Assembly: GCF_022760995.1 (NCBI RefSeq)
Contig: NZ_JAKWJO010000012.1
Location: 1 to 64,000, forward strand
Length of the DNA stretch: 64,000 nt
Source: Dyella sedimenti
Lineage (GTDB): Bacteria > Pseudomonadota > Gammaproteobacteria > Xanthomonadales > Rhodanobacteraceae
Direction of reading: 5' to 3'
Under the pieces are notes generated by a model that did not search any database, was not told the DNA's origin, and saw only the letters and a list, made by a program, of their open reading frames with translations. This document shows, piece by piece, positions 53,777 to 55,132 of this stretch (position 1 is the first letter of the stretch; each line of letters opens with the position of its first letter). Position numbers and translations under genes: made by a program.

Positions 53777-53837
53777 GGGTCGCGCACAGGGTGCGCTCCT
53801 ACAGAAGCCTTGTAGGAGCGCACCCAGTGCGTGATCC
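53777..53837. repeat. REP-like inverted pair, copy C
   Basis: GGGTCGCGCACAGGGTGCGC with TCCTACA (53777-53803) and its inverted partner TGTAGGAGCGCACCCAGTGC with GTGATCC (53811-53837), 7 bases apart, form one long imperfect hairpin of about 27 bases per arm. It fills nearly all of the 78-base gap between two convergent genes and could also end both transcripts. Confidence 0.75.
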
Positions 53838-53845
53838 AACCCTCC

Positions 53846-54847
53846 TCAACGGGCGAAATACCAGGCGATATAGGCGGCAAACACGCCGTACAGCAGCCCG
53901 ACCGGCACCAGCCAGCGCGCATCCACGCGCCCGCGGCGGAACTGCCACCACAGGAAAACCACCGCCACGGCGGTCAGCACGCCGGCCACCATCAGCGGTG
54001 CATCGAACAGCCAAGGCGTGGCGAACAGCGCCAGCGAACTGGGAATGGTGGCCTGGATCATCATGGCGCCGGAGATATTGGCCAGCGCCAGCCGCTCCTT
54101 GCCCTGGCGCACCCAGATCAGCGCATTCATGGTTTCCGGCAGCTCGGTGGCCACCGGGCTAAGCACCAGCGCCACGAGGTGCGGCGAGAGCTGCAAGGCC
54201 AGGCCGATCGCCTCGATCTGCCGCACGAAGGTGTGCGAGGCCACGGCGATCACCGCCAGCGCCGCCAGCGTCTGCACTGTCACCCACCACATCGAGGGAT
54301 CGGCCGCCCCGGGCCGGCACTTGAGCGGCTCCAGCGCCTCGTCTTCCGGCGCCGCGTCGTCGCTCTTCAGCTCGCGCCAGACATACAGCGCGTAGGCGGC
54401 CAGGAACAGCACGCCCAGCCAGGGCTTGAGGGCGAAGGTCACCAGGCCCGCGGCGCACTTGGCGATGAAGATCACCAGGAACCAGGACTGGTCGCGCGCC
54501 AGGCGCCGGTGCGCCACCCGCACCAGGTTGTCGGCACGCTGCAAGCGGCGGCGATTGGCCCACAAGGCCATGCCGACCACGGCGTAGGCGATGGTCGCCA
54601 GCACCAGCGGGCCGCCCAGCGCCGCGCCCACGCCGATGTCGCGCTGTTCCGGCGTGCGGCCCAGGATCACCGCGACGAAGGTGACGGCGCTCTCCGGCAG
54701 CGCCGTGCCGAACGCGGCGAGGATCGTGCCGGTCGCCGTGGCGCCCAGCCGGAGCTTGTGGCCGAACCATTCCACGCCATTGACGAAGTACTCGCAGGCG
54801 AGATAGATCGCGCCGGCGGAGAGCAGGAACAACAACAGGGTGAGCAT
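53846..54847 (-). CDS. CaCA-family cation exchanger, probable manganese-linked exporter
   Basis: A 333-residue membrane protein with 10 or so hydrophobic segments in two homologous halves. The two alpha-repeats that form the ion site are visible as TILAAFGTALPESAVTFVAV (about 42-61) and LSPVATELPETMNALIWVRQ (near 240), each with the key Pro-Glu. This is the calcium/cation antiporter superfamily (YrbG-like). The start at 54847 follows GGAAAAAG; the frame is open further upstream, but that is leader sequence. A yybP-ykoY riboswitch precedes it, which points to manganese efflux rather than purely calcium exchange. Confidence 0.85.
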   Translation of the reverse strand: MLTLLLFLLSAGAIYLACEYFVNGVEWFGHKLRLGATATGTILAAFGTALPESAVTFVAVILGRTPEQRDIGVGAALGGPLVLATIAYAVVGMALWANRRRLQRADNLVRVAHRRLARDQSWFLVIFIAKCAAGLVTFALKPWLGVLFLAAYALYVWRELKSDDAAPEDEALEPLKCRPGAADPSMWWVTVQTLAALAVIAVASHTFVRQIEAIGLALQLSPHLVALVLSPVATELPETMNALIWVRQGKERLALANISGAMMIQATIPSSLALFATPWLFDAPLMVAGVLTAVAVVFLWWQFRRGRVDARWLVPVGLLYGVFAAYIAWYFAR

Positions 54848-54859
54848 GCTTTTTCCAGG

Positions 54860-54906
54860 GCCGGGCGAGCGGAAACCATTGGCTCGACGACGCGAGCTCG
54901 CCCGGC
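54860..54906 (-). promoter_or_regulatory. Expression-platform hairpin of the manganese riboswitch
   Basis: A perfect 11-bp GC-rich stem (54860-54870 with 54896-54906) with a 25-base loop lies between the aptamer and the ribosome-binding site of the exchanger. It ends about 12 bases from the start codon. It could compete with the aptamer or control access to the start region. Confidence 0.5.
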
Positions 54907-54924
54907 GAAGGTGAGCGCGTCGCG

Positions 54925-55075
54925 GCCAAAGGTCTCGCCGGGCTAACGGCACCGCAGGTGCCGTGGGCCATCCACGCCATGAAGCCTTCGCTTCAAGTCT
55001 GTTGACGCGGATTCCTCGGATTCGCCGGCCGGAACGGCGGGCGGATGGGGTGAGGATGGCTACTCCCCAATGACA
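54925..55075 (-). ncRNA. yybP-ykoY (manganese) riboswitch
   Basis: On the minus strand three hallmark blocks of the yybP-ykoY aptamer occur in the right order and spacing: TTGGGGAGTAGCC (about 55059-55070), GCGTCAACAGACTTG, and GGCGAGACCTTT (about 54928-54939). These correspond to the two conserved internal loops that together bind Mn2+ and the GAGACC closing block. The aptamer is about 150 bases long and starts about 230 bases before the exchanger ATG. In known cases Mn2+ binding turns on exporter expression. Confidence 0.85.
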
Positions 55076-55132
55076 ACGGGCGGCATGGTACCGGCTAGGT
55101 TGGCTTGCCGACAAGCCAGCGCCTTCGCCGGC

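Follow-up and report, generated by a model that had tools for sequence, protein, structure and literature searches.

Does a calcium/cation antiporter gene that lies behind a manganese riboswitch encode a manganese exporter? The question is raised by a locus in Dyella sedimenti (assembly GCF_022760995.1, contig NZ_JAKWJO010000012.1), within the 64,000-nucleotide stretch of DNA that we analyzed and refer to as the window. A first-pass annotation had placed all three signature blocks of the yybP-ykoY aptamer ahead of a 'YrbG-like exchanger' gene and had assigned a manganese-efflux role to the product. A cmscan search of both window strands against all 4227 families found the RF00080 (Manganese, yybP-ykoY) aptamer at 55080-54924 on the minus strand with a score of 65.1 bits, above the gathering score of 45 (E = 8.6e-15). 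The match is full-length, from position 1 to 177 of the 177 in the model. All three blocks were located (Table 1); the third is CATGGCG, and GAGACCTTTGGC comes next. GGGGAGTAG is also a conserved block of this aptamer. The interval initially annotated, 53846-55075, is correct, and the aptamer match reaches 5 nt further. It is the single RF00080 match in the 4.3-Mb genome at E 0.001 or better. Our reading is that a Mn2+-sensing riboswitch turns on a CaCA-fold antiporter at high cell Mn2+ and that the antiporter exports Mn2+; we give it a probability of roughly 85%.

The aptamer match and the exchanger ATG are separated by 76 nt. The open frame as such opens at TTG 55114. Since this longer frame would cross the aptamer, ATG 54847 was chosen as the start. 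A putative -10 element, TACCAT, lies at a site that, as judged by eye, is occupied by TAAAAT in many Dyella leaders and by TACAAT in those of Bordetella. It is a weak candidate because a consensus scan found no promoter at this site. At its other end the exchanger gene converges with a 2OG-Fe(II) oxygenase-like gene, and an inverted repeat (GGGTGCGCTCCTACA ... TGTAGGAGCGCACCC, 53789-53825) lies between the two, possibly a REP-like element or a two-way terminator.

Table 1. Features of the exchanger locus in the window, listed from the promoter side to the end of the gene.
Feature	Coordinates	Strand	Evidence or remark
TACCAT, putative -10 element immediately upstream of the aptamer	55085..55090	-	by-eye position match; weak
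yybP-ykoY (RF00080) Mn2+ riboswitch aptamer	54924..55080	-	cmscan 65.1 bits, cut-off 45
Aptamer signature block GTCATTGGGGAGTAGCC	from 55074	-	read in aptamer
5' strand of switch helix P1.1 (GTCATTGG)	55067..55074	-	pairs with strand A
Aptamer signature block CGCGTCAACA	55009-55000	-	read in aptamer
Strand A (ACCTTTGGC), common to P1.1 and the downstream hairpin	54925..54933	-	near-invariant or invariant in 46 leaders
Strand C (CGACGCG), forming the 5' side of hairpin C:C'	54916..54922	-	compensatory changes in 7/7 pairs
Strand B (GCCGGGCGAGC), between C and C'	54896..54906	-	B:B' pairing and covariation
Strand C' (CGCGTCG)	54888..54894	-	C:C' pairing and covariation
Strand A' (GCCAATGGT), partner of A, like the aptamer 5' strand	54875..54883	-	A:A' pairing
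Strand B' (GCTCGCCCGGC), 12 nt from its end to the start codon	54860..54870	-	B:B' pairing and covariation
Gene for a CaCA-family antiporter of 333 aa, a predicted Mn2+ exporter (start ATG 54847; stop codon ends at 53846)	53846..54847	-	PF01699 103 bits; AlphaFold model; tree group

The gene product belongs to the CaCA family. The Pfam model Na_Ca_ex (PF01699) matches it in two stretches with 103 bits (cut-off 24.9), so that both alpha-repeats were found. An AlphaFold model based on a 97-row alignment has a mean pLDDT of 90.7. A Foldseek search with this model returned CAX, VCX1, NCLX and NCX structures (best E 2.6e-8). The model aligns with 26 CaCA structure rows at Z scores of 33.1 to 20.2, and the next rows drop to 7.0, which identifies the CaCA fold. 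It superimposes on NCLX (9ps6_A) with a Z score of 33.1 and 2.9 Å over 311 residues, on CAX (4kpp_A) with 30.6 and 3.1 Å over 317, and on NCX_Mj (3v5u) with 22.2 and 4.6 Å over 285. The fold is thus common to the window exchanger and CAX, VCX1, NCLX and NCX_Mj, whereas the identity to the 26 rows is 12-20% and the site residues are altered.

The alterations are best described relative to NCX_Mj. Ser51, Ser77, Ser210 and Ser236 of NCX_Mj, which we take to be the Na+-site serines of the alpha-repeats, lie opposite Ala49, Gly79, Glu235 and Ala261 in the window protein, so none of the four is kept. Both glutamates are retained, Glu54 and Glu213 lying opposite Glu52 and Glu238. Asn81 and Asp240, presumably also site residues, lie opposite Thr85 and Thr267 if the alignment has gaps, or Leu83 and Gln265 if it does not, and neither placement retains an Asn or Asp there. 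Because these partners depend on gap placement, the position of Gln265 in the site is unsure. Glu52, Glu235, Glu238, Asn257, Met262 and Gln265 are identical in 97 of 97 rows, including eight distant ones. A CaCA protein of Pseudomonas brassicacearum on a contig without an aptamer has GSNIFN, STSLPE and GSSLFN instead. The invariant methionine is, to our mind, reminiscent of the Nramp metal site. We infer that the exchanger group prefers Mn2+ and is coupled to protons.

The label 'YrbG-like exchanger' needs a correction, since strict YrbG identity had to be rejected. The YrbG equivalog model (NF008005 / PRK10734) gives the window exchanger 32.6 bits against a cut-off of 432, and TIGR00367 gives 74.5 bits against 179.65; one Bordetella and one distant relative likewise score far under both cut-offs. 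The exchanger is part of a CaCA group of its own, whose site is altered; the nearest curated models name its relatives calcium/sodium antiporters. These scores, the replacement of the four presumed Na+-site serines and the retention of the riboswitch in most named orthologs over several phyla make it very improbable that the protein is a Na+-coupled YrbG-type Ca2+/Na+ antiporter that gained its riboswitch by chance. What speaks for such a protein is that NCX_Mj is the nearest PDB sequence match, and that a 2023 review lists BP3410, an antiporter of Bordetella pertussis discussed below, under 'Ca2+:cation exchanger, YRBG' (PMC9936198).

The linkage between riboswitch and exchanger extends well beyond the window. 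An RF00080 match at E 0.001 or better is present in 42 of 61 related genomes and exceeds the cut-off in 38. The 45 matches in total precede the exchanger (29), GDT1 (9) and MntP (5); the remaining two, at loci L048 (30.6 bits) and L049 (22.4 bits), are both below the cut-off and were assigned to no gene. Thirty of the 61 genomes contain the exchanger. All belong to the family of the window (Rhodanobacteraceae), and they include 20 of 20 genomes of its genus. In genome G035 (locus L160) it directly follows the end of a dapB-like gene; there is no leader, and the genome has no RF00080 match.

The first-pass annotation had called for a survey of CaCA genes preceded by RF00080. Our ortholog scan confirmed at least 574 relatives, and the best 80, which lean to close relatives, were kept as named orthologs. 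Among these best 80 of at least 574, 46 have RF00080 at or above the cut-off directly upstream, and the survey bears the pairing out. In successive batches of 20 the counts are 19, 16, 9 and 2. A relaxed three-block motif lies upstream of 62 of the 80, comprising 43 of the 46 RF00080-positive orthologs and 19 of the other 34. The motif is absent from all 1678 control windows taken from the same loci; this, together with the score of 65.1 bits (cut-off 45) at the window aptamer, rules out a chance likeness. Either rule holds for 65 of the 80 and neither for 15; L140, one of the 15, has an aptamer by eye. Thirteen of the 19 orthologs with only the motif are actinobacterial (L129, L132, L141, L142, L146, L148, L150-L152, L154-L156 and L159). 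Their yybP-ykoY-like leaders read GGGAGTAG ... TCGACA ... GAGACC, and in L129 and L132 CGAAGG faces CCTTCG. All 13 are below the RF00080 cut-off and are therefore missed by surveys that use it.

In a wider sample of the phylum, 50 of 299 genomes have a homolog at 1e-10, and 19 of the 30 loci kept were searched for RF00080. A match precedes the gene in six of the 19, over the cut-off at L069, L056 and L075 and below it at L055, L052 and L068. The other 13 of the 19 loci, including 10/13 distant ones (~30% identity), gave no match at E 0.1. In the genomes of four Bordetella species, Acinetobacter seifertii, Ralstonia pickettii and Pseudomonas brassicacearum, each of which has a named ortholog, RF00080 precedes the exchanger in 7/7 cases, the match in B. 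ansorpii (42.7 bits) being below the cut-off. The four other CaCA proteins there (G354, G356, G359 and G360) are on contigs without an RF00080 match, as is a ChaA-like CaCA protein in the genome of the window. Translations read behind the second aptamer show MntP in each of three Bordetella species, and GDT1 in Acinetobacter, Ralstonia and Pseudomonas; the other match of B. ansorpii, its second, and a weak third one in Ralstonia were left out of this reading. Two ortholog loci carry other riboswitches as well. A guanidine-II aptamer (41.7 bits, cut-off 32) lies downstream of the exchanger gene at L056 (1005-1059), and an M-box (Mg2+) riboswitch (137.2 bits) lies on the opposite strand at L121 (1759-1933), beside the Mn riboswitch of a Pseudomonas ortholog.

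In a maximum-likelihood tree with a midpoint root, the window protein and four Bordetella proteins fall into one fully supported group of 89 rows. The riboswitch label, which omits L052 and L055 (matches below the cut-off), needs 18 changes, and 8 of 500 shuffles were as low. The label is therefore clustered only moderately.

The Bordetella proteins connect the window exchanger to published experiments. BP3410 of B. pertussis is a CaCA antiporter under yybP-ykoY control (Capek et al., 2021, PMC8546581); its gene follows the aptamer directly, as at the window locus. That study reports that Mn2+ induces BP3410 through the riboswitch, and that induction is lost when two conserved aptamer G residues or the -10 sequence TACAAT, named there as plausible, are mutated. 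Calcium was without effect on expression (data not shown in that paper), and cells without a functional copy of BP3410 contained ~5-fold more Mn (PMC8546581). The gene carries an inactivating duplication in most B. pertussis strains (PMC8546581). The window protein has no similar insertion in our alignment A1. Four other Bordetella proteins stand in for BP3410 in the alignment and the tree; they are 63-66% identical to the window protein and share its 89-row group, although Bordetella belongs to another family than Dyella. Bordetella leaders carry TACAAT ahead of the aptamer, at the place that matches the BP3410 -10 sequence, and two Bordetella species have a single CaCA protein each, adjoining RF00080. 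With a riboswitch directly upstream and a tree group in common with the Bordetella proteins, the window exchanger is a probable member of the BP3410-type Mn exporters. The two settings differ in that the exchanger lies behind the sole RF00080 match in the genome of the window, whereas in three Bordetella species MntP lies behind a second one.

Further evidence comes from genomes in which the exchanger is absent. In the family of the window, 30 of 37 genomes have the exchanger and 7 do not. GDT1 or MntP scores over the cut-off in all 7 of the latter (GDT1 in 6, MntP in 1) versus 1 of the 30 with the exchanger (G003, whose MntP has its own aptamer); an MntP match of 20.5 bits in G033 is below the cut-off and was not counted. 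In each of the 7, an RF00080 match precedes GDT1 or MntP, over the cut-off in 6 and below it in G027 (36.2 bits). Grouped by genus, 11 of 18 genera have the exchanger and 7 have GDT1 or MntP (Fisher p = 3.1e-5; counting Dyella as MntP-bearing too gives 2.5e-4; genera are not fully independent). The alternative exporters covered by this survey were GDT1 and MntP. MntP and GDT1 (UPF0016) are under the same yybP-ykoY aptamer as the window exchanger but belong to other Pfam families (PF02659 and PF01169), and in this family they occur where the exchanger is absent.

The manganese-efflux role proposed at first pass is thus supported by the RF00080 match, the ortholog linkage, the replacement by GDT1 or MntP and the BP3410 tests. 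The assignment was essentially correct, though not new, having been published for the counterpart BP3410 (PMC8546581); the pairing of this riboswitch with a CaCA antiporter is published in another genus. Because of the BP3410 results and the presence of the Bordetella proteins in the same tree group, Mn2+ efflux is the best reading for the window exchanger and is well supported. Would the protein instead export mainly Ca2+, or both Ca2+ and Mn2+, with the riboswitch linking the two ions, as it does in the case of MgtA, a pneumococcal P-type ATPase? The CaCA fold is compatible with this, the best matches among solved structures are Ca2+ exchangers, and a yybP-ykoY riboswitch before mgtA is tied to Ca2+ efflux in a review (PMC9495176). 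Since aptamers of this class can also govern a Ca2+/Mn2+ pump, Ca2+ transport retains some probability. We nevertheless consider it unlikely that Ca2+ is the main or a joint substrate: the site differs from that of NCX_Mj at several positions, with key residues invariant in 97 sequences, MntP or GDT1 replaces the exchanger in sister genera, and in B. pertussis calcium left BP3410 expression unaffected while a functional copy lowered cell Mn (PMC8546581).

How might the aptamer control the gene? The region between aptamer and start codon contains several conserved helices. Strand A pairs with the aptamer 5' strand to form P1.1, the known switch helix of yybP-ykoY (PMC11087558). In 51 aptamers, 313 cells of P1.1 are paired, against a shuffle mean of 301.5, and 0 of 2000 shuffles were as high; 6 of the 8 positions pair in the window, which therefore possesses P1.1. 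Strand A can also pair with A' downstream. In an alignment of 46 leaders (A3), 80.7% of the A:A' cells are paired, two central U positions being mostly unpaired. In the same leaders, 90.2% of the C:C' cells are paired, with compensatory changes in 7 of 7 pairs, and 98.6% of the 506 B:B' cells, with compensatory changes in 6 of 11 pairs. The observed values for B:B' and C:C' were reached by 0 of 500 shuffles, save for 3 of 500 on one C:C' measure. When the strands are slid against each other, paired cells drop to 28-46% for B:B' and 9-60% for C:C', a comparison that favours the structure as it was read from the same sequences. RNAalifold, unaided, also selects B:B'.

Alignment A3 comprises 46 of 90 exchanger tails. 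Near-copies, far starts and other platforms account for 35 of those omitted, and L115, L119-L123, L126, L127 and L147 for the others, of which eight (all but L123) diverge. Adding these nine gives 55 leaders (A4); the 35 omitted tails and 13 GDT1/MntP tails are outside both alignments. In A4, B:B' is 96.9% paired (compensatory changes in 8 of 11 pairs), C:C' 86.9% (7 of 7) and A:A' 80.0%. All five whole-structure measures exceed 500 of 500 shuffles, with the caveat that related sequences can beat shuffles without structure. When single leaders are tested against versions with a mononucleotide-shuffled 3' part, B:B' reaches p ≤ 0.05 in 78 of 103 tails, comprising 74 of 90 before the exchanger and 4 of 13 before GDT1 or MntP, where it is visible by eye in more. 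L053, L054 and L094, in which no anchor was found, were omitted from this test. Some failures reflect a wrong choice of A' (e.g. L100); those in Firmicutes and Actinobacteria look real. A platform of this kind is best supported before the exchanger and seems to recur in some leaders of GDT1 and MntP. L094 (2208-2498) has a degraded aptamer core that lacks the GGGAGTA block, with the end of a tRNA gene just before it; its exchanger is still preceded by strands resembling A, B, A' and B'. Seven leaders (L056, L069, L075, L113, L118, L131 and L139; chosen start far downstream) have an ATG or GTG 4-18 nt after the best B', which suggests a short upstream reading frame.

Strand B sits inside the C:C' hairpin and B' beyond it, so the helices B:B' and C:C' cross. 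Judged by the pairing pattern, they may form an H-type pseudoknot or two alternative states. As a pseudoknot the layout would have loops of 7-11, 0-1 and 16-21 nt, and the distance from the end of B' to the start codon is 8-14 nt in the 46 leaders. The best nested fold of the window tail is a long hairpin with B' free (-42.3 kcal/mol, versus -24.4 for B:B' alone), as calculated by a program unable to score pseudoknots. Such a fold is at odds with a simple scheme in which B:B' is the Mn-free OFF state. Another pairing, D:B (GCTCACC with the end of B), is preferred by the nested single-sequence fold and has 77.9% of its cells paired; it was rejected since 81 of 500 shuffles reached its covariation score. 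B:B' as an antiterminator was also set aside, because B' is transcribed later than the hairpin whose formation it would need to prevent. Our limited literature search found no description of crossing helices in such leaders, which is weak support for novelty; in the portions of PMC11087558 and PMC7838592 consulted, the sole mention of a pseudoknot in each concerns the preQ1 riboswitch. In the E. coli mntP and alx leaders, a GGGGAGTA block is followed by a GAGACC strand as in the window leader, but strands like B and B' are not visible by eye.

We suggest the following sequence of events. Transcription probably starts at or just upstream of the aptamer. Binding of Mn2+ would stabilize P1.1, which holds strand A. 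Without Mn2+, strand A would pair with A' and give an extended long hairpin (A:A' and C:C') with lower expression. B:B' probably gates ribosome entry, its 3' arm being 12 nt from the start codon, and could act in either direction. The controlled step may be termination (intrinsic or Rho) or translation. Control at the level of translation and through Rho are both plausible for the window leader, because E. coli mntP is controlled in both ways (PMC11647493). The antiporter made in response would move Mn2+ and be coupled to protons, not sodium.

It is also quite possible, at somewhat less than even odds, that the leader works mainly by Rho-dependent termination, the hairpin and B:B' serving RNA stability or the tuning of translation; this would be compatible with Ca2+ export as well as with Mn2+ export. 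A consensus scan of the window leader found no intrinsic terminator, the E. coli mntP riboswitch works with Rho (PMC11647493), and in B. pertussis without Mn transcription stops within the riboswitch region (PMC8546581). A role for the hairpin in switching is instead indicated by strand A, which is common to P1.1 and A:A', and by the Clostridium and Pelosinus orthologs (L138, L140 and L143), where A:A' has by eye turned into an apparent intrinsic terminator with a T run.

The conserved layer of crossing helices between aptamer and start codon is the new point that emerges from these alignments; also unexpected is the set of residues that do not vary within the exchanger group. Taken jointly, they would describe proteobacterial leaders with an undescribed H-type pseudoknot platform (C:C' and B:B', 0-1 nt between B and C', the last strand 8-14 nt from the start codon, tied to the aptamer via strand A) in front of a Mn2+/H+ antiporter family marked by Met262 and the extra Glu235. 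We put this combined description forward tentatively and regard it, as a whole, as less likely than not.

For the family, three different exporters are exchanged behind one aptamer, which makes the assignment checkable from genomes. The linkage of riboswitch and exchanger over several phyla and the BP3410 experiments argue for naming the close relatives Mn exporters. The crossing helices near the start codon offer a concrete, mutable hypothesis for how the leader may reach the ribosome.
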